Origin: Afipia sp. 1NLS2
GTDB taxonomy: Bacteria > Pseudomonadota > Alphaproteobacteria > Rhizobiales > Xanthobacteraceae
DNA: 64,000 bases
Assembly: GCF_000178995.1 (NCBI RefSeq)
Contig: NZ_ADVZ01000001.1
Location: forward strand, 248,001-312,000
Reading direction: 5' to 3'
Below the pieces are notes generated by a model, which searched no databases, was not told the origin of the DNA, and saw only the letters and a list, made by a program, of their open reading frames with translations. Below are positions 12,434 to 53,900 of the stretch, piece after piece (the first letter of the stretch is position 1; each line of letters starts with the position of its first letter). A program made the position numbers and the translations under genes.

Positions 12434-12856
12434 GTCAGTCGGCCGGACGGCCGCTCTTGCAGGATCGAAAGGTCGCAAGGGAGGAAAGTCCGGGCTCCAT
12501 CGACATACGGTGCCGGATAACGTCCGGCGAAGGCGACTTCAGGGAAAGTGCCACAGAGAACGAACCGCCTCGCCTCCGCAAGGAGCGCGCGGTAAGGGTG
12601 AAAAGGTGCGGTAAGAGCGCACCGCGTTTCCGGCAACGGCGACGGCATGGCAAACCCCACCGGGAGCAAGACCGAATAGGGATGGCACAGTGGAAAGTTC
12701 GCCTCAGGGCGATAACTCCGCGGGGCGATGTCGAGCCCGCCATCCGGGTAGGTTGCTAGAGGCGCGGAGCAATCCACGTCCCAGAGGAATGGCCGTCACG
12801 TCTGCGTGGTGCAAACCATTCAGGCCCTACAGAACCCGGCTTACAGGCTGGCTGAC
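12434..12856 (+). ncRNA. rnpB: RNase P RNA, bacterial type A
   Basis: The catalytic RNA of RNase P, which matures tRNA 5' ends. Conserved blocks are visible in order: GAGGAAAGTCCGGGCTCC near the 5' end, then GCAAACCCCACCGGGAGCAAG, then AGAGGAATGGCCGTCACG, and ACAGAACCCGGCTTACAGGC at the 3' end. The GTCAG at the 5' end pairs with CTGAC at the 3' end, which sets the borders to within a few bases. It lies between the amidase gene and the efflux operon. Short open frames across it are not genes. Confidence 0.95.
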
Positions 12857-12884
12857 ATCCGCATCGCGACAAGCGATGGTCTAT

Positions 12885-43085: not shown

Positions 43086-43496
43086 TCAATTCGCCGTCGC
43101 AGGCTCGACCTTCATGCGGCGGCCCCAATTATCGAAGAAGTGCCCTTCATTGACCACCATGCGGTCCTCATTGACGCGATCCTCCAGCGCGCGCAGCTCC
43201 TCTGCCGCGCGGCGATCCTCGATTGGGCCTCCATCTTCGTCACTGACCGGCATGATCAGAACGCCGTCCCACGCGACACCAGCGCCTCGCATCAGCATGC
43301 TGAACTGATGCCAGTCAAGTTCATCCCCGATCATATGCGTAAATGTCGAGCGCAACGGCAACACGCTGAGATTTGCCGTCGAAACCAGCAGGATCAGTGC
43401 GGTGAAGCCATTCCTGCGCCGATATTCCTTGACGATCCAGTCGTCGAACAAGGCATCGTCGAGCTTCTCCCGGTGCCCCCTAGCAGATTTCGACAA
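43086..43496 (-). CDS. hypothetical protein, last gene of the sel operon
   Basis: A predicted 136-residue protein of unknown function. The most ORF-like start is a TTG at 43496 with GGAG 9 bases upstream, which overlaps the previous gene by 17 bases. The frame is open to 43553 but that part is antisense-like filler. Recognisable features are a KLDDALFDDWIVKEYRRRNG opening, a hydrophobic stretch around GFTALILLVSTANLS and an acidic, charged C-terminal half. No transmembrane segment is certain. It is coupled to a second unknown gene and to selB/selC, so a selenium-linked role is possible by association only. Confidence 0.6.
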   Translation of the reverse strand: MSKSARGHREKLDDALFDDWIVKEYRRRNGFTALILLVSTANLSVLPLRSTFTHMIGDELDWHQFSMLMRGAGVAWDGVLIMPVSDEDGGPIEDRRAAEELRALEDRVNEDRMVVNEGHFFDNWGRRMKVEPATAN

Positions 43497-43974
43497 GCGG
43501 CAGCTCCACGATTTCTCGCTCAAGCACGCTGAGGAAGGGGCCATTGCGTGCATTGCCGAACCAATTCTCGAACTCGCTCAACTGCTTTCCGATGTCGGCC
43601 GGCTTCTCTTCCGGCTTCGCATCGTCGCTCGCTTCATCTCCGGTCCCGGCCTGTTTCATTTGCCAGCAGGCACGAATGACCGGCTGGAATTTCTCCAGCG
43701 ATTCCTGTTGGGATTCGTTTTCCGCCGACCAGCCGACCTCCCGCAGGAAGGCCGCCGAGCCTCTGACGACAGCATCATCCTCGGTCTCGCAATCCTGAAT
43801 CGCCGCGACGACCGTCCGCATGAGATTTAGCCTGCGAAAACCGAAAGCGCGTTCGTTTGCAAGCTCCTTGAGGCGAACAGCAATTTCGCGGCGATAATTT
43901 TCCTCGTTCACGCTCGCCTCGTGCGCGGAGCGCTCGAAATCATCGAGAAATGCGGAAAGCTGCTGCGTCGTCAT
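43480..43974 (-). CDS. hypothetical protein coupled to selB
   Basis: A 164-residue, mostly helical, acidic protein without a domain I recognise. Its ATG overlaps the selB stop by four bases (ATGA). A Glu/Asp/Lys-rich segment lies near residues 112-126 (GDEASDDAKPEEKP). In the primary transcript its translation start lies only about 30 bases past the 3' end of tRNA-Sec. RNase processing of the tRNA would therefore separate it from its upstream coupling partner. Confidence 0.65.
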   Translation of the reverse strand: MTTQQLSAFLDDFERSAHEASVNEENYRREIAVRLKELANERAFGFRRLNLMRTVVAAIQDCETEDDAVVRGSAAFLREVGWSAENESQQESLEKFQPVIRACWQMKQAGTGDEASDDAKPEEKPADIGKQLSEFENWFGNARNGPFLSVLEREIVELPLVEIC

Positions 43975-46070
43975 CGCACACCCAATTTCGGTGAGAGAGG
44001 ATTTGGCGGAAGAGAATGGGAGTCGAACCCACCAAGAACCGTCTCGCGGCCCTTCCCGGATTTGAAGTCCGGACGCCCCACCGGGAACGATGCTCTTCCG
44101 TTAAGGTCTATCTTCGCAACCTTCGCTGACGCTGGCAATTCATCAAACGATCTGCCGAAAAGGTCAAGCCGGTACTTATTGACGCGGCGTAAATCGCCAT
44201 GACGAATGGTGACACCGTGCCGGTCGAAGAATTCGAGAATCTGTATTGCAACCTTGCGGCCATTGTCGAGGCGATCGCGTAGCTGTGCCGCGGTGAAATA
44301 GCCATCTGGCGCTACGGCGGCCACGGACGTCATGATCTGGACAATCTCGGCGACAGTCCCGCGCAGGAAAAAATGATCGTGAGCGACCTCGTCGACCTTG
44401 CCCATGCGGCCAATCAACTTGAAAACCCGCCTCACCTCGGGCTCGGAGATGCCCGTAAAACCCGCGATATCGCGCACGCGCGGCGGCCGGAAGCGTGCTT
44501 CGCCGCCAATATAATGGGCTACCTTGGCCCACACCGCCTCATCGGCCGACGACAATCGCACCTCATGACCCGGCAGGCGAACCCATGCGCCATCGAGTGC
44601 CACCTCCTTATTGCGCGCGAGTCCCTGCAATAATGCGACGACGACTGGCGTCGCGAGCCGTGGCTCGAGTTGCAGCCGCAACCGTTCAAGCCCCATGCCG
44701 GGGAGGTTGGGATGGTCCGCGTGAAAAGCCGTGAGCGTCGCGTTGATCGCATTCTTCAGGCGAAGCCATGCCGCCGGCGCGATCACATACTCTGCTTTCG
44801 GAGTTGGCAGCCGCAGCAGGCTGAGGCGCTGGATCATCGCCTCGCGCTCGCTTGCCGACAGCGCATGGTCGCGCACGAAAGCGGTGAAATCGATATAGCC
44901 GGTGACCGCGAGCATCGCCCACAGACTTTTATCGGCGTCGGCAATCGCTCCCGCTTCGAGCTGGGCGATCCGCTCCGGTGTCCGCCGCTTGCGCGCGGGG
45001 GCGCGTAAATCCACGAGAACGCCACCGCCGATTGTGCGTTGTGCCGTGGTGTCGCGAAGCACGAACCGGTCTCCCGCCACAGCAGCAATCGGCCGATCCA
45101 TCACGAGTTGGACAAAAGCTTCACCGCCCGGCGGCACCGGATCGTCGCCCAGCAGCACCACCCGCGCACCAATCTCAGACGCTGCGTGATGCAGCCGTAC
45201 CGGCATCCATTGGGTGACAGACCGCGTTTCCGAGGAAAGCACCTGCAATTTTGCATCGATCCGATTGGCCGGCGCATGCAGTACGGGATCGAGCACGACG
45301 TCGCCGCGACTGATCGCATCCTTACTGATCTGATCGCCCGCAAGATTGAGCGCACAGCGATCCCCCGCCTGCCCATGCTCCGCAGTACGATTTTGCACAT
45401 GAATGGCACGCACACGTGCCATTCGCCCCGACGGGCTGATGACGACCTGATCACCTACCGTAACGCTGCCAGAGAGCACGGTCCCCGTCACCACGGTGCC
45501 CGTGCCGGACAATGTGAACGAACGGTCAACTGCGAGACGGAAACGTCCCTGCGCCGAGCGGCCGGACCACGCTGTCGCCGCCGCGAAAAGGTGCGCGCGC
45601 AATTCCGCGACACCTGCCCCCGTCGCGCTGGATACCGCAAACATCGGCGCATCGTGCAGCGCCGTTGGCGCCAGAAAATTCGAAATCTCAACCCGAGCCT
45701 CCGCGAGGCGCTCGGCGTCCACCATATCCGACTTCGTAATCGCGACCGCACCAGCATGGATGCCGAGTAGATTGACTATCGCAAGATGCTCGATGGTCTG
45801 CGGCATGACGCCGTCGTCGGCAGCGATCACCAGGAGAACGAAATCGATTCCGGTCGCGCCTGCGAGCATGTTGTGAACAAAACGCTCATGCCCCGGCACG
45901 TCGACGAAACCGAGAATGCCGCCCTCCGGCATCGCCAGATAGGCAAAGCCTAGGTCGACAGAGATGCCGCGCGCCTTCTCCTCCTTCAGGCGATCGGTAT
46001 CGACGCCGGTCAGCGCTCGCACCAGCGAGGTCTTGCCATGGTCGATATGTCCTGCGGTGCCGACAATCAT
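43971..46070 (-). CDS. selB: selenocysteine-specific elongation factor SelB
   Basis: SelB is the GTPase that delivers Sec-tRNA to UGA by binding the SECIS hairpin. The ATG at 46070 gives 699 residues. The GTPase motifs are [14 protein letters not shown] and TKSD, followed by the EF-Tu-like beta barrels and C-terminal winged helices ([28 protein letters not shown]). The similarity to E. coli SelB (614 aa) ends near residue 640. The remaining ~60 residues include residues 658-689, which are exactly the tRNA-Sec gene read in frame. TAATG couples it to the Sel1-repeat gene. Confidence 0.93.
44004..44099 (-). tRNA. selC: tRNA-Sec (TCA)
   Basis: A 96-nt tRNA including encoded CCA (44006-44004). 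The acceptor GGAAGAG pairs with CTCTTCC; the eighth pair expected in bacterial tRNA-Sec is a C-U mismatch as I read it. The anticodon loop CTTCAAA carries TCA. The long variable arm is AAGGGCCG / CGGTTCTT with two G-U pairs. The T-arm is GTGGG-TTCGACT-CCCAT. It decodes UGA in fdoG with SelB. The whole gene lies inside the selB reading frame on the same strand. Confidence 0.95.
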
Positions 46071-46891
46071 TATGCAGGCTCCGGCAATGGGAGATTCGCA
46101 AGCTTTTTGGCGCGTTCGATCTCCGCAACCGACAATGCCGCGAATGTCGGATGAATGAACGATTCCGCAAGCGGGCTCGCACCGGCCTGCGCCCGCAGCA
46201 GCCACATCAACGCCGCGACGCCGTCACGCGGCACCCCCGCGCCGAGTTGATAGGCCGCGCCGAGCATCGCCTGCGCATCGGCATCGCCGAGCGCCGCCGC
46301 CTTGTCCCACCAGCGCGCGGCTGCGGCAGCATCACGTTCGACGCCAAGCGCGTTGTGATACATCATGCCGAGCCGCGTCATTGCGGGCACGATGCCCTGC
46401 GCGGCTGCAGCTTCCGCCCAGCGCTTCGCATCCGAAATGTCGCCGGGGATCATCTCGCCCTCGACCAGCATCCACGACAGCATGTCTTGCGCCGGCCCGT
46501 CACCTGCTTCCGCTGCCATCCGGTAGAGTTCGGCGGCCCGGACCGCATTGGCCTGGACGCCTTCACCCTTAAAGTAGATTTCGGCAAGGTTGCGTTGGCC
46601 GACCGGATCGCCGCCTTCGGCCGCAAGCGTCAGCCATCGCAAGGCGAGCGCGCTGTCGCGATCGACCCCAAGCCCGTCGCTGAAACACTTGCCGATATTG
46701 TTCTGGGCGCGCGCAACACCTTGATGCGCCAACGGCCCCCAAATCGCCAGTGCGGATTCGTAATCATTTGCCTCAGCGGCTTCATAGGCCAGCGCCATCC
46801 GTTCGGCGACCAGCGCTTCGCCCGCAGCTTCGCCCGGCGCATCCGCCCCGCGCTGTTGACGCAAATCCTCAAAGAATTTGCGCAGGCCCAT
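46070..46891 (-). CDS. Sel1-repeat (TPR-like) protein between selA and selB
   Basis: A 273-residue soluble protein made of about six Sel1-like repeats (for example [17 protein letters not shown] and [21 protein letters not shown]). Such repeats form helical scaffolds for protein-protein contacts. There is no signal peptide, so it should be cytosolic. It is coupled on both sides: its ATG overlaps the selA stop (TGATG) and its stop overlaps the selB start (TAATG). The name Sel1 is coincidental (from a nematode gene). A scaffold role in Sec synthesis or delivery is inferred from position only. Confidence 0.85.
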
Positions 46892-48306
46892 CAGCGCCGC
46901 TCCTCTACATGTAACGTCGCAAGATTACGCACGAACGCTGCCTCATCTTCGAGGCAGCGGAGATCCAGCACGAGAGCATCATTCTCGACGCGGCCGATGA
47001 CCGGCTGGTCCAGCGTGCGGAGCGCAGCCGCCAGCGCCGTCAGCGCGCGACCTTTTCCACGTGTTGCTGTCGCGCTTAGCGCAATTCCCGCGCTTGGAAT
47101 CACCTCGGACGGCAATGATCCCGAACCGATTTGGCTTGCGCAGGCAATCACGACAGCGGTGAAGTGCGAACCGGCGGCGGCTGCGACGACAGGCCTGAGG
47201 CGCGCTGCCGCGGCTTCGATATCGGCAAGTGGGCGCGCCATCATGCGCAATGTCGGCAACCGTTCGGCCAGACGATCCGGGTCGCGATAGAGCCGCAACG
47301 TCGCCTCGATCGCCGCAAGGCGAATCTTGTCGATACGCAGCGCACGCTTCATTGGATTGCGGTTCAGCCGCGCAATCAATTCCCGCTTACCGACGATGAA
47401 CCCGGCCTGCGGGCCGCCAAGGAGCTTATCGCCAGAAAATGTCACGAGGTCCGCGCCCTCAGCCACGGCCTCCACTACGGTCTGCTCGTGCGTCAGCCCA
47501 TAGCGCGCCAGATCGACCAGTGTGCCGGACCCAAGATCGTTCAGGAGCGGTACGTGACTCGCGTGCGCCAATGCCGAGATGGCCTTGCCGGATACCGATT
47601 TGGTGAAGCCCTCGATGCGGTAGTTTGACGTGTGCACCTTGAGGATCAGCCCGGTCTTCGGACTGATCGCCGCCGCATAATCCTTTTCATGCGTGCGATT
47701 GGTGGTACCGACTTCAAGCAGCTTGGCGCCAGCGCGCGCCATGATCTCCGGCATGCGGAAGGCGCCGCCGATCTCGATCAACTCACCGCGCGAAACGATC
47801 GCCTCTTTACCCTTGGCCAGTGTATTGAGCGCGAGCAGAACGGCGGCGGCATTGTTGTTCACAACCGTTGCATCTTCGGCGCCGGTCAATTCGCACAACA
47901 GGCCACGAACCAGGCTGTCGCGCTCGCCGCGCTTGCCCTGCGCAAGATCGAATTCCAACGCCAGAGCTTCGCGCATCGCGACCGTCGCCGCGTCAATCGC
48001 CGCTTCCGCAAGAATGGCGCGTCCGAGATTGGTATGCAGCACGGTACCGGTGAGGTTGAACACCGGCCGTGCATTCGGGCGCGCATCCGTCTCAAGCCAT
48101 AAAACAGCATCGGCGGCGATGGCTTCGGCACTGGCCGCAGGCGCCTCGCCCGCGCCAATTCCGCGCCGCACGGCAGCGGTCGCCTGACGTATCGCTTCCA
48201 CGGCGCGCGTTCGCCCAAAGCGGGCAACCGCCTGCTGCGCCGGCGGCGTTTTCAGAATTTCATCGACGGACGGAATTCGGCTGGGGGTGGAAATTCCTGT
48301 ATCCAT
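46891..48306 (-). CDS. selA: L-seryl-tRNA(Sec) selenium transferase
   Basis: SelA converts Ser-tRNA-Sec to Sec-tRNA-Sec with selenophosphate. The 471-residue PLP enzyme has NLTGTVLHTNLGRA, VNNNAAAVLL and the PLP lysine in SGDKLLGGPQAG. An AAGGAGG ribosome-binding site precedes the ATG. It is 10 bases after fdhE and starts the coupled series selA-Sel1 protein-selB. Confidence 0.96.
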   Translation of the reverse strand: MDTGISTPSRIPSVDEILKTPPAQQAVARFGRTRAVEAIRQATAAVRRGIGAGEAPAASAEAIAADAVLWLETDARPNARPVFNLTGTVLHTNLGRAILAEAAIDAATVAMREALALEFDLAQGKRGERDSLVRGLLCELTGAEDATVVNNNAAAVLLALNTLAKGKEAIVSRGELIEIGGAFRMPEIMARAGAKLLEVGTTNRTHEKDYAAAISPKTGLILKVHTSNYRIEGFTKSVSGKAISALAHASHVPLLNDLGSGTLVDLARYGLTHEQTVVEAVAEGADLVTFSGDKLLGGPQAGFIVGKRELIARLNRNPMKRALRIDKIRLAAIEATLRLYRDPDRLAERLPTLRMMARPLADIEAAAARLRPVVAAAAGSHFTAVVIACASQIGSGSLPSEVIPSAGIALSATATRGKGRALTALAAALRTLDQPVIGRVENDALVLDLRCLEDEAAFVRNLATLHVEERR

Positions 48307-48316
48307 ATCGGCCTCC

Positions 48317-49234
48317 TTAGTAGCCGATCAGAAACGGATTGACGCCACCGCGGCGGAAGCCGAGCTCGCGCACCAGAAGATCAAGCCCAAGCGTCGCGAC
48401 ATCGTCGGCGACCGGATCGAGGCGATCATCCTTCTGGTGATTAAGCACTTTCATATAACCGTGACAATCATCGCAGGTTTCAGCCTTGATGTTGCCGGCC
48501 CCTTCGATTTCCTGAAACAAAATTTTGCGGGTCGAACCGCAGAGCGTGCATTTGGAGCGAACGTAGTTCCAAAGCGTTCCGCAGAGCGAGCAAGAACAAT
48601 AACGCGCACCCGGCGTATGCGGCGAATTGATCAGCACCGTCGCTGTCGGAGCACCGCCGCAGGACGGGCATGCACCGTCACCGACCGATTGCAGGCTCTT
48701 GGGATCGAGCCGCGCGGCGAGACGAGCAAAATGCACCTGGAGGGCCGCAGCGAGAAAGATGTGCTCGGCGAGTGCTTCGACCGGAATGGCTTCTGCCAGC
48801 ACATTCTCGACCATGCGCGTACGCCCGTCGGCATCCGCTTTCGTAACCTTCTCAAGCGCGATACGTGCCTGTGCCGGCATATCGAGGTCGGCCGCCGCAA
48901 CAAGCAGCCGGTCCAGCGTCGCAGTAAAGGCGGCGTCGGCCGTGAAATGTCCCCGATCGAGCGGCGGCATGGTGTGCTGGCGCGCGCGCTCCAGTGTTTC
49001 CAATGCAATGGCGTCCGGCTCCGGCAGTCCCTCCTGAATGGCCGCCTGCACCCGGCACAAACCGGACAGGAACCTCAAATAGGGCGCAAGTTCATGGCCT
49101 TCGGCGAGTGAGCTAAAACGCGCCGCGCGAACCGAAAACAACTGGTTTGGGTCGGGGAGCCGCACAAACGGCGGCGTCGGAATATTGCTGACAACGGATG
49201 GATCAGGCGCAGTCGAATCGACGCTGGACATCAT
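48317..49234 (-). CDS. fdhE: formate dehydrogenase accessory protein FdhE
   Basis: FdhE is a cytoplasmic chaperone needed to assemble Tat-exported respiratory formate dehydrogenases. The 305-residue product contains the paired zinc-binding-like motifs CPSCGGAPT, YCSCSLCGTLWN, CTLCGS and CDDCHGYMK that define the family. It lies between the fdo structural genes and selA, joining enzyme assembly and Sec synthesis in one gene block. Confidence 0.93.
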   Translation of the reverse strand: MMSSVDSTAPDPSVVSNIPTPPFVRLPDPNQLFSVRAARFSSLAEGHELAPYLRFLSGLCRVQAAIQEGLPEPDAIALETLERARQHTMPPLDRGHFTADAAFTATLDRLLVAAADLDMPAQARIALEKVTKADADGRTRMVENVLAEAIPVEALAEHIFLAAALQVHFARLAARLDPKSLQSVGDGACPSCGGAPTATVLINSPHTPGARYCSCSLCGTLWNYVRSKCTLCGSTRKILFQEIEGAGNIKAETCDDCHGYMKVLNHQKDDRLDPVADDVATLGLDLLVRELGFRRGGVNPFLIGY

Positions 49235-49370: not shown

Positions 49371-50042
49371 TCAGTGCTTTGTTGTCGTGACCAGATCTTT
49401 CAGCCACTTGCGATGGTGCCGCCAGGCCCAGCCACCCGTCACCTGACCACGCGTCATCGCTCCGATCGTGCCGCGCACCCAAATGCCCGCATAAACGTGA
49501 ACGATCCAGACACAGATCGCCACAATCGCAGCCCCCGAATGCACCAGCACAGCAATCCGCCGCTGTTCGATCGTGAAGTAGCTCGCGAAATACTCATCCC
49601 AACTGATAAGTCCGGAGACGATCAGAACGAGGATCAGGAGCGACATCGACCAGAACACCACCTTCTGTCCGGCATTGTACTTGCCGACTTCGGGCAACTT
49701 GTTCTCGTCGCCAGCCAGCACATCACGCAACCGGCCCAGCCAGACGCTGTCGTTTTTCTTCCAGAGATTGAGCCGGAAGAAACGGAAGAACAACCCCATG
49801 AAGCTGAAGAACAGCACCACGCCGATCCACGGGTGGATCGCCCGCGTCAACTGCCCACCACCGAACAGGCCTGTCAGGAAATACAGACTCGGGCTGTACA
49901 ACGCGAGGCCGGACAAGGCGAGCAGCACGAGGCTGACCGCCGTGATCCAGTGGTTGATGCGCGCACCGACGGTGTAGCGGTCGACGATGACCGGTTTACC
50001 GGGATGAACGCTGTCGCCCGTATCGACTTCCAACTCGCTCAT
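49371..50042 (-). CDS. fdoI: formate dehydrogenase gamma subunit, cytochrome b556
   Basis: The 223-residue membrane subunit passes electrons from the beta subunit to quinone. It has four hydrophobic helices and histidines for haem b ([39 protein letters not shown]). Its start overlaps the fdoH stop by four bases. I cannot tell the FdnI and FdoI paralogues apart. Confidence 0.92.
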
Positions 50043-50977
50043 GACCGTCCCTCCGTCAATCGCTCGGCGTTCTTCTCATCCTCCTCCGACACCCTGTTGG
50101 GGCCGGCGATGGCATGATGCAGGAAGCCGATGGCGGCAAAGGCACCGATGGCGGCGAGACCGGCGTATTTGGTCACGCCCTTCCAGACTTCAACGATCGG
50201 ACTGATCGATGGGTTGTTCGGCAGGTTGGCATAGATCTGCGGCTTATCGAGATGCTGCAACACGTACATGACGTGCGTGCCACCCACGCCCGGAGGATCG
50301 TAGAGGCCGGCATTGGTAAAGCCGCGCGACTTGAGATCCTTGATGCGGTGGTCGGCCCACTGCTTCATCTCGTCCTTGGTGCCGAATACGATCGCCTGTG
50401 TCGGGCAGGCCTTCTGGCACGCAGGTCCCTGCCCAACCGCGACGCGGTCGACACAGAGTGTGCACTTGTAGACCTTGGAGTCCGCCTTCGACAGACGCGG
50501 GATGTTGAACGGGCATCCCTTGATGCAGTAGCCGCAGCCGATGCACTTGTCGTGGACGAAATCCACGATGCCGTTGGAGTACTGCACGATGGCGCCAGGC
50601 GCCGGGCAAGCCTTGAGGCAGCCCGGATCCTCGCAATGCATGCAGCCGTCCTTGCGGATCAGCCACTCGAGATTGCCGGTTTCGGCATTCTCGTACTCGG
50701 TGTAGCGCATCAACGTCCAGGTGTTTTCCGTCAGATCGTGCGGGTTGTCATAGACACCCGTGTTGATACCGACTTCCTCGGTGAGGTTATTCCACTCGAG
50801 GCACGCCACCTGGCAGGCCTTGCAGCCGATGCACTTCGATACGTCGATCAGCTTCGCCACCTCCGTCTGCCGCTTGGCAGGCGGAGTGACGGTGGAAGCC
50901 GAACGGCGGATCAGATCCTGGTCACCGAACTTCGCGGGAGCCGGATTGGTGGTCGGGTTAGGAACAGGTGTAAACAT
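50039..50977 (-). CDS. fdoH: formate dehydrogenase beta subunit, 4Fe-4S
   Basis: A 312-residue electron-transfer subunit with four ferredoxin-type cluster motifs: [35 protein letters not shown] and CTLCVDRV with a later CQKAC. A C-terminal membrane helix (about 268-290) anchors it from the periplasmic side. It lies 15 bases after fdoG and couples to fdoI. Confidence 0.95.
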
Positions 50978-50992: not shown

Positions 50993-53900
50993 TTAAGCCA
51001 CCGGACCCGTGATGGGTTCGATATTGACAAGGAACGCCTTGTATTCCGGCGTCTGCGAATTCGCGTCGCCGATCGCGGACGTGAGCCCGTTGATCGGAGA
51101 AGCCTTCTTGGTCTCGCCGATGAAGCCGAAGTTGAGCGGAAGCCCCACTTCGTGCACCGGCTTGCCGTCGATCATGAACGGCTTGAGGCGTTTGGTGACG
51201 ACCGCCTTGCCCTTAACCTCGCCGCGCTTGGATCGAACCCGGACCATCTGTCCGTGCTTGATCCCCTTCTCCTTCGCGAGTTGCTCGGAGATTTCCACGA
51301 AGAACTCGGGCTGCATCACCGCGTTGGCATGCACGCTCTTTGTCCAATAATGGAAATGCTCAGTGAGGCGATAGGTCGTACCGACGATCGGGAAGTCCTT
51401 GGACGTGCCAAGCGCCTCCAGATCGTTCTTGAACGCCCGCGCCACCGGATTGCCCTTGAGTTTCGGGAACACAAGGTTGCCCACCGGCGATTCGAACGGC
51501 TCCATATGCACCGGGAACGGACCATCGGCCATCAAGCCACGAACCCAGAGGCGTGACACGCCTTCCGCATTCATGATGAAGGGTCCGACTGCCCGGCTCG
51601 GCGGAATGGTCGGCACATAGTCCGGCACATCCGGTCCGGTCCAGCGTTCGCCGTTCCAGTACATGTACTTCTTGGCTTCGCTCCACGGCTTGCCGTCAAC
51701 GTCAGCAGAAGCACGGTTGTACTGAATGCGGCGGTTGGCCGGCCACGCGAAGCCCCAGCTACCGTACACACCGAGCCCCGAGGGGTCGCTGTTGTCGCGG
51801 CGCTGGGCATTGTTGCCGGTCGGACCGTAGACGCCGGTGTAGATCCACATGCAGCCGTCAGTCGAACCATCGTCCCGCATCTCGCCGAACGAAGCGAGGC
51901 GCTGGCCGGCGGCACGAACCACCTTGCCGTCTGCATCCTTGAGATCGACAAGAGCCTTACCGTTGAGCTCGGTTAGAAGCTCCTCGACCGTCGGATGGAG
52001 CGGATCCTTGTAGCTCCAATCAACCGCGAGGATCGCATCCTTACCCTTGCCGCCATCCTTCTCGTACATCTTGCGCATGCGCACAAAGAGATCCGACAGG
52101 ATTTCGATATCAGTCCGCGACTCGAAGTACGGATCGGCGGCCTTCCACTTCCACTGGATCACGCGACTCGAGTTGGTGACGCTGCCCTCCTCTTCCGCGA
52201 AGGAAGTGACGGGCAACATGAACACCTCGGTCTGGACCTTGGCGGGGTCGATATTATTGAACTCGCCATGATTTTCCCAGAACCGGACGGTATCCGTCTC
52301 GATTGGATCCATGCTGACCAGGAACTTCAGCTTCGACAGCGCTTCCCGGCTCTTGTTCGAGTTGGGAATTGCCATCAGCGGATTGAAGCCCTGACAGAGA
52401 AGACCGTTGGTCTTACCCTGGTGCATCACATCAAACATCTTGATGCAGTCATAGATGCCGTCGAGCTTCGGCAGGTAGTTGTAGCCGAATTCGTTCTCCT
52501 TGGTGGCATTGGCGCCGAACTGCGATTTCAGGAAGCTGACATAGAACTTGCGATAGTTCTGCCAGTAGCTGGTCTGGTTCGGCGTCAGCGGCTTGAAGGT
52601 GCGCTTCGCAAGATGCGACTCCAGTGTCGGCTCCTGCTCGGTTGGCAATGCCAGATAGCCCGGAATTGCCGCCGTCAGGGTGCCGACATCGGTGATGCCC
52701 TGCACGTTGGAGTGACCGCGCAATGCGTTCACGCCGCCGCCGGGAATACCGATGTTGCCGCACAGAAGCTGAATCATCGCCGCACAGCGGATGTTCTGAG
52801 CACCATGGCTGTGCTGCGTCCATCCGAGCGCATACATGATCGTCATCGCGCGTTCGCCATTGGCGGTTGACGAAACCCACTCGGCCACCTTCAGGAACTT
52901 GTCCTTTGGCGTGCCCGAGACACGTTCCACCAGCTCCGGCGTATACTGCGCGAAGTGCTTCTTCATGAGTTGGAACACGCAGCGCGGATCCTGCAACGTC
53001 ATATCGCGTATCGCGAAGCCGTCAGGACCGAACTTGTATTCCCACGTGCTGCGATCATACGAACGCTTGCCCTCGTCGTAACCGGAGAACAGGCCTTCGT
53101 TGAACTCGAAATCGTCGCGAACGATGAACGCCGCGTTCGTGTAGTTGCGCACGTACTCTTTATGGATCTTGTCGTTGGTGAGCAGGTAGTTGATCACACC
53201 CGACAGGAACGTGATGTCCGATCCGGAACGGATCGGAGCATAGTGATCCGCCATGGCTGCCGACCGGTTGAACCGGGGGTCAACCACCATCAGCTTGGCG
53301 CCACGCTCGGCTTTCGCCTCGGTGACCCACTTGAATCCGCAGGGATGTGCTTCCGCTGCGTTACCACCCATAATCCAGACGAGATCAGCGTTCTTGATGT
53401 CCGTCCAGGAATTCGTCATTGCACCGCGACCAAATGTGGGGCCCAAACTGGCCACCGTCGGTCCGTGTCAAATTCTCGCCTGGTTTTCGATCTGCAACAG
53501 ACCAAGGCCACGCGAGACCTTGAACGTCGCCCATCCGCCTTCGTTGGCCACCGAACTGCCGGCAAGGAACGCGGTCGTCATCCACCGATTGACGGTGATG
53601 CCGTCGCGATTCTTCTCGACCCAGTTGGCGTCGCGATCTTCCTTCATCAATTTCGCGATGCGCTCCATCGCGAAATCCCAGCTCACCCGCTCGAAGCCAT
53701 TGCTGCCGGGCTTGCGGTACATCGGGTACTTCACCCGCGTCTTTGATTTGATGTAATCAAGTGCGCCTGCACCCTTGGGGCAGAGCGTACCGCGATTGAC
53801 CGGATGATCCACGTCACCCTCGATGTGGGTGACTTCCATTTTGCCTTTTTCTTCCTTGCTCTCAGCAGAGAAGATCAGCATTCCGCAGCAAACCGCACAG

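Follow-up and report, generated by a model that had tools for sequence, protein, structure and literature searches.

An in-frame tRNA-Sec gene within selB of Afipia sp. 1NLS2 and its likely translation as the tail of SelB

Can one stretch of RNA serve both as the end of a message and as a tRNA precursor, and is the tRNA then read as protein? The question is raised by a locus in the 64,000-nucleotide stretch of DNA analysed here (the window), in which the selB frame passes through the whole of selC. Entire tRNA-Sec genes within selB have already been described in diverse Alphaproteobacteria, together with a model in which tRNA processing yields a nonstop selB mRNA (Mukai 2021, Int J Mol Sci 22:4605, PMC8124441). 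A 2026 review (PMC13188914) restates the nesting and the nonstop-mRNA proposal, and the available part of a 2020 review of unusual tRNAs (PMC7609411) makes no mention of nested selB-selC. A search of the open-licence literature found no experimental test of the idea that nesting balances tRNA-Sec against SelB. The nested arrangement is already published, and the present analysis adds a quantitative test of phase and stop.

Anatomy of the nested selB-selC locus

ARAGORN analysis of the 64-kb window revealed a tRNA-Sec gene with the anticodon TCA on the minus strand (Table 1), and the Rfam model RF01852 matches positions 44008-44099 with 75.6 bits against a curated cut-off of 47. The first base of the tRNA (44099) is the first base of selB codon 658 and its CCA (44006-44004) is codon 689; exactly 32 selB codons, read from G658 (GGA) to P689 (CCA), coincide with the tRNA. 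The original prediction that tRNA-Sec is embedded in the selB frame proved right to the base, and the stop-free passage that it described through the whole 96-nt tRNA was borne out, with 699 codons down to the TGA. In-frame nesting of tRNA-Sec in selB is confirmed as genuine.

The model TIGR00475 covers SelB residues 1-629 with 413.1 bits against an equivalog cut-off of 242.25, and the Pfam wing domain of SelB comprises residues 589-629. As the SelB models end at residue 629, the last 59 residues (641 onward) correspond to spacer (17), tRNA (32) and tail (10). The TGA lies 30 nt past the CCA, where the motif ATGA joins the stop to the ATG of ORF2. Among the best 120 of 8000 hits, the closest SelB of a named species, that of Afipia carboxidovorans, shares 86% identity and likewise has 699 residues. 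The locus is a predicted dual-coding overlap, in which the last 42 selB codons take in the whole tRNA-Sec gene. The sense strand of the tRNA at this locus is open in all three frames, so that an open frame across it is unremarkable taken alone; judged from the sequences compared below, the excess over chance is the phase lock across many species and not the open frame as such.

Table 1. Features of the selB-selC locus and the surrounding selenium and formate dehydrogenase cluster (positions in the window)
Feature	Position	Strand	Evidence or remark
ORF2, 164 aa	43480..43974	-	ORF, ATG within ATGA
ATGA, overlap of selB stop and downstream ATG	43971..43974	-	sequence
Tail, 10 codons past CCA, then TGA	43971..44003	-	sequence
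selB ORF, 699 codons	43971..46070	-	ATG 46070, TGA 43971-43973; TIGR00475
selC, tRNA-Sec(UCA), 96 nt, CCA encoded, SelB codons 658-689	44004..44099	-	ARAGORN, RF01852, fold
Spacer, 17 codons, from conserved SelB end (residue 640) to tRNA base 1	44100..44150	-	selB frame
Sel1-repeat protein	46070..46891	-	one base in common with selA and one with selB
selA, selenocysteine synthase	46891..48306	-	Pfam SelA, 544 bits
fdhE	48317..49234	-	TIGR01562, 289.9 bits (cut-off 187.65)
Formate dehydrogenase gamma	49371-50042	-	TIGR01583, 177.4 bits, over cut-off
Formate dehydrogenase beta	50039-50977	-	TIGR01582, 468 bits, over cut-off
Formate dehydrogenase alpha, part after the Sec region (model positions 201-1008)	50993..53455	-	TIGR01553, 1140 bits (cut-off 814.2)
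SECIS_3 element at the start of the alpha-subunit ORF	53415..53473	-	RF01989, 71.4 bits (cut-off 63)

Genes upstream of selB are packed as tightly as at its 3′ end, with one-base overlaps. ORF2 has no Pfam match at 1e-3 and no NCBIfam match at 0.01. The 64-kb window that holds the nested tRNA also carries a class A RNase P RNA gene (12435-12859, 299 bits).

Comparison with the published nested loci (PMC8124441) revealed no anatomical difference. Both have an entire sense-strand selC in the selB ORF, the window tRNA of 96 nt agrees with the published nested tRNAs of 96 or 93 nt that run from GGA/Gly to CCA/Pro, and the formate dehydrogenase-selA-sel1-selB cluster is likewise present. The selB stop, reported to overlap the next ORF “in many cases” (PMC8124441), does so here as ATGA, and the downstream ORF may or may not correspond to ORF1 or ORF2 of that paper. 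The window genome also has an un-nested second and a divergent third selB-selC pair. The same paper reports partial overlaps elsewhere, remnants in Sinorhizobium meliloti and instances in which the overlap was lost. In the partial overlaps of Dyella/Luteibacter and Nitrospirae, selB also enters selC but stops inside the tRNA (at tRNA positions 46-48 in the Dyella locus L132 examined here), whereas the window frame passes completely. The tRNA of the reverse overlap in Shewanella is antisense, compared to sense in the window. A tRNA-Lys in cox1 of Armadillidium vulgare mitochondria, as far as PMC8124441 cites it, also lies in a coding region in direct orientation, but in a compact mitochondrial genome and within a protein not dedicated to that tRNA.

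Phase and termination across SelB loci

SelB loci were collected from genus, family and order relatives, from genome contigs (best 80 of 572), and from order, class and phylum samples. The query of the contig set included the SelB tail, which biases this set toward nested loci; the order, class and phylum queries were the tail-less residues 1-640, and these samples include the window genome itself. A SelB match was found in 26 of 397 genomes for the order (at 1e-80), 52 of 385 for the class (1e-80) and 51 of 398 for the phylum (1e-65), with the class rows G741 and G656 and 21 phylum rows that had no locus left out. A downstream selC on the same strand, sought to ~1.5 kb or less where the locus ended, was present in 11 of 12 loci from relatives, 76 of the best 80 (of 572) contig loci, and 20/28, 27/49 and 20/24 loci of the order, class and phylum samples, respectively. 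Those in which selB stops after or inside the tRNA number 11, 61 (again among the best 80 of 572), 10, 3 and 0 in the same order. Nesting is frequent in loci related closely to that of the window and scarce in the broader phylum sample.

The tRNA ends were set by one rule for nested and un-nested loci alike, moving the ARAGORN start to GGA and the end to the G before CCA, which leaves a few un-nested ends odd (e.g., 104 nt in L147). Loci of different sets may belong to the same species, and exact duplicates were dropped for the codon-position, tree, close-locus and ORF2 counts only; L166 and L168 are two hits to one locus, and L166 was excluded from the tree. A length of 96 nt is found in 83/85 nested versus 51/69 un-nested tRNAs, kinship ignored, an excess in nested loci as suggested before (PMC8124441). 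Two nested loci on plasmid records, from Terrarubrum (L258) and Phyllobacterium (L251), have an open selB ORF, yet no selB CDS is listed and the locus tags skip; the overlap may defeat automatic annotation there, the gene table being one that omits pseudogenes.

In every one of the 85 loci whose selB has no stop ahead of selC, the first base of the tRNA is the first base of a codon, as against phases of 21/26/22 in the 69 loci with such a stop (both counted over overlapping sets with duplicates kept), and the spacer length is a multiple of three in 73/73 distinct read-through loci. Of the 61 distinct nested tRNAs, 46 lack a stop in every frame, and the spacer before a nested selC has no stop in frame 1 in 59/77 loci and none in frame 2 in 47/77. 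Since tRNAs and spacers are mostly open in the other frames, nesting in another phase would be possible.

The same pattern holds on a FastTree phylogeny of 146 partial SelBs (79 nested and 67 un-nested, seven duplicates dropped), on which changes were counted by parsimony. Switches between the nested and the un-nested state number at least 12, against a mean of 48 in 200 shuffles, the direction of change being unpolarised. Among the 79 nested tips the spacer has become longer or shorter at least 41 times, every time by a multiple of three, compared to a minimum of 52 length changes and 26 phase changes among the 67 un-nested tips. With independence assumed and an even chance for each change to fall in frame, 41 in-frame changes out of 41 would be expected with a probability of ~5e-13; the phase lock could partly stem from one origin with slow turnover. 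A distant SelB of 40% identity (L213) enters selC in phase 0 and stops at tRNA positions 46-48, and the peptide read from its tRNA is a different one. Its neighbours in the tip order of the tree are un-nested SelBs, and the overlap may have arisen there independently.

Termination is as regular as the phase. The frame stops within 36 nt past the CCA in 69 of 73 distinct read-through loci, compared to 19/72 and 9/71 for the two remaining frames and 15/63 for frame 0 of un-nested selC. The tree requires at least 35 changes of tail length. The stop is prompt in 34 of the 37 loci with a start codon at -4 to +5 of it and in 35 of the 36 without one, and in these 36 loci alone the spacer has changed in length at least 18 times, each time in frame. 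Phase lock and prompt stop are most simply explained if ribosomes pass the tRNA and terminate, and translation through the tRNA is likely on these comparative data.

Explanations for the conserved frame

Differences per codon position were counted in 11 independent close pairs. They amount to.070/.048/.274 for the 200 codons of SelB that precede residue 638, to.174/.180/.198 for the spacer and to.233/.150/.183 for the tail (equal-length tails only, 180 nt in total), and in these pairs they reveal no amino-acid-level selection in spacer or tail. As the frame is kept without a codon-position signature in the spacer, it is the passage that seems to be selected and not the sequence of the tail. 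Many un-nested SelBs terminate a few residues beyond the conserved domain, and the two S. meliloti remnants are two amino acids apart in their tRNA-derived part. The tail as a conserved peptide was rejected by the codon-position counts and the tails of un-nested loci; all of this agrees with the earlier suggestion that the last ~60 residues may be dispensable. A similar remnant is present in Microvirga calopogonii (L124:5917-6068), where the selB frame holds ~66 nt of tRNA-Sec followed by unrelated sequence and ARAGORN found no tRNA in the locus.

At the RNA level, a cloverleaf with an 8-bp acceptor stem is present in the minimum-energy fold of a 220-nt transcript, and the 220-nt stretch overall is no more stable than its shuffles (z 0.19). 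Fourfold-site divergence dips near the selB 3′ end in 15 pairs; an embedded selC promoter as its cause was rejected, the dip being equally present in 15 pairs in which selB stops before selC and, non-significantly, in six pairs without selC. Excision of the tRNA with re-joining of the frame was also rejected, with nothing in its support and one nested tRNA of 95 nt. That maturation of the tRNA conflicts with translating the last 42 codons, as originally proposed, follows from the anatomy. The claim that one RNA cannot give both products is too strong, because one mRNA may be translated several times and processed afterwards; exclusivity would hold for one moment of the RNA and not for its lifetime.

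Nesting is not required. The close loci, defined by at least 55% identity and a selC no more than 150 nt away, number 97 once duplicates are removed; selB reads through the tRNA in 72 of them, stops inside it in five and stops before it in 20. The window genome has a second selC outside selB. Comparing selB ends and selC positions among relatives, as the original prediction advised, upheld the shared phase and prompt stop of nested loci but also brought out these 20 un-nested ones. The second set (L242, G000 C10:1286926-1288959) is an un-nested selA-selB-selC array with adjoining selD, whose SelB is 53% identical and whose selB stop lies one base before its tRNA. In the third pair (L243, G000 C6:212497-213715) the tRNA lies just upstream of a divergent SelB, which is 37% identical over residues 2-365. 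Near this pair is a formate dehydrogenase whose Sec site is an in-frame TGA (L243:4168), preceded by an open frame of 91 aa (92 and 135 aa in relatives). The tRNA of the pair (L243:10621-10716) has the anticodon UCG in the window genome and UCA in two relatives (L245, L248), with the dehydrogenase codon staying TGA; the third pair is possibly a decaying locus or a case of altered decoding. G016, a genome in one contig, has no tRNA-Sec match above 50 bits besides the nested tRNA, the next match (48.3 bits, over the 47-bit cut-off) being a tRNA-Ser by ARAGORN; RF01852 exceeds its cut-off in 5/14 control genomes. The nested cluster of G016 carries a SECIS, and with no other match above 50 bits any insertion of Sec in this genome must depend on tRNA from the nested gene.

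Several explanations might account for a frame so regularly kept. The one proposed with the first description (PMC8124441) holds that folding and excision of tRNA-Sec turn selB into a nonstop mRNA, that the alternation of the two products holds the tRNA:SelB ratio, and that nesting was selected for it. It draws on the wide conservation of the arrangement (PMC8124441, and the survey and tree above), the cloverleaf predicted to form within the mRNA, and the sequestering of Sec-tRNA by excess SelB (PMC8124441). However, it requires just the lack of a stop before the first tRNA base, in any phase, and homeostasis alone does not explain the phase-0 lock and prompt stop. Among the close loci the spacer lacks a stop in frame 0 in 77/97, barely more often than in frame 1 (67/97, Fisher p 0.14) and frame 2 (62/97, p 0.025), which gives no clear sign of resistance to un-nesting. 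With the repeated switches of the nested state on the unpolarised tree, the close un-nested loci and the un-nested second pair also against it, this balancing model appears less compelling than its wide conservation suggests, and we regard it as possible but doubtful. Nor does the tRNA-encoded peptide look like a working part of SelB, a reading that we consider improbable. It would fit the six loci that stop inside the tRNA, all beyond its first 15 codons and all in phase 0 despite six different spacer lengths (from residue 638), and the S. meliloti remnants, which retain the 5′ part of the tRNA (see also PMC8124441). Against these stand the lack of amino-acid-level constraint, the un-nested SelBs without the peptide and the divergence of the two remnants, and peptide conservation inside the tRNA is accounted for by the tRNA itself.

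Two further explanations we hold to be very improbable. The frame past residue 640 might be untranslated, the selB mRNA ending earlier and selC having its own promoter; SelB homology does stop at 629-640, and tRNA-Sec genes are often open anyway (frame 0 in 39/55 distinct un-nested loci). The phase lock and prompt stop argue against this, the lower divergence at fourfold sites recurs in un-nested loci, and a sigma-70 scan of 43850-44500 gave no promoter match, which says little as shuffles average only 0.2. Alternatively, the overlap might serve only translational coupling to the downstream ORF, as suggested by the ATGA in the window, by a start codon at -4 to +5 of the stop in 37/73 read-through loci (downstream ORF of at least 60 aa, or at least 40 aa if open at a contig end) and in 3/6 stop-inside loci, there within the tRNA, and by ORF2, which lies beside 40/74 nested but only 3/18 un-nested close loci with enough downstream sequence. 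The ORF that follows ORF2 (the two spanning window positions 43086-43974) has a like distribution (39/74 versus 3/18) and no Pfam or NCBIfam match. Yet the remaining 36/73 loci keep the frame and the prompt stop, a profile search left 31 read-through loci without ORF2, and none of the five stop-inside loci tested yielded ORF2. In some of those 36 loci ORF2 starts 9 to 46 nt later, and coupling there may be looser. Coupling as the sole cause was rejected, as about half of the read-through loci have no start codon at the stop.

A proposed dual-coding overlap and its meaning

We lean somewhat towards a dual-coding overlap in which the tRNA is translated as the SelB tail, the same transcript is also the tRNA precursor, and the competition between the two is probably tolerated. 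Ribosomes on the selA-sel1-selB transcript would translate the tRNA as protein, and the product would be a SelB whose last 59 residues form a loose tail without sequence-specific function. The same transcript, when free of ribosomes, would fold the cloverleaf, from which RNase P and 3′ nucleases would release tRNA-Sec. Once cut, it would leave a nonstop selB message and a severed downstream ORF. A promoter of its own might also serve selC. Given how common un-nested relatives are, and that the window genome itself carries a second copy outside selB, competition between translation and maturation would probably be a tolerated consequence that contributes modest tuning at most.

A further reading, which we consider unlikely, is that the passage of the ribosome is itself selected, such that a ribosome terminating just past the CCA in a fixed phase times or assists the release and folding of tRNA-Sec. 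If true, the tRNA would mature only from selB messages translated to the end, and the phase lock and prompt stop would be explained without constraint on the peptide or the downstream gene.

Under the dual-coding overlap that we favour, a whole tRNA in a bacterial coding frame would make one stretch of RNA both message and tRNA precursor, a sharing that involves both partners of selenocysteine insertion, SelB and tRNA-Sec. The published case rested on anatomy; the statistics of phase and stop now make translation of the tRNA likely. The question is narrowed to what maintains the frame when neither the peptide nor nesting as such seems indispensable.
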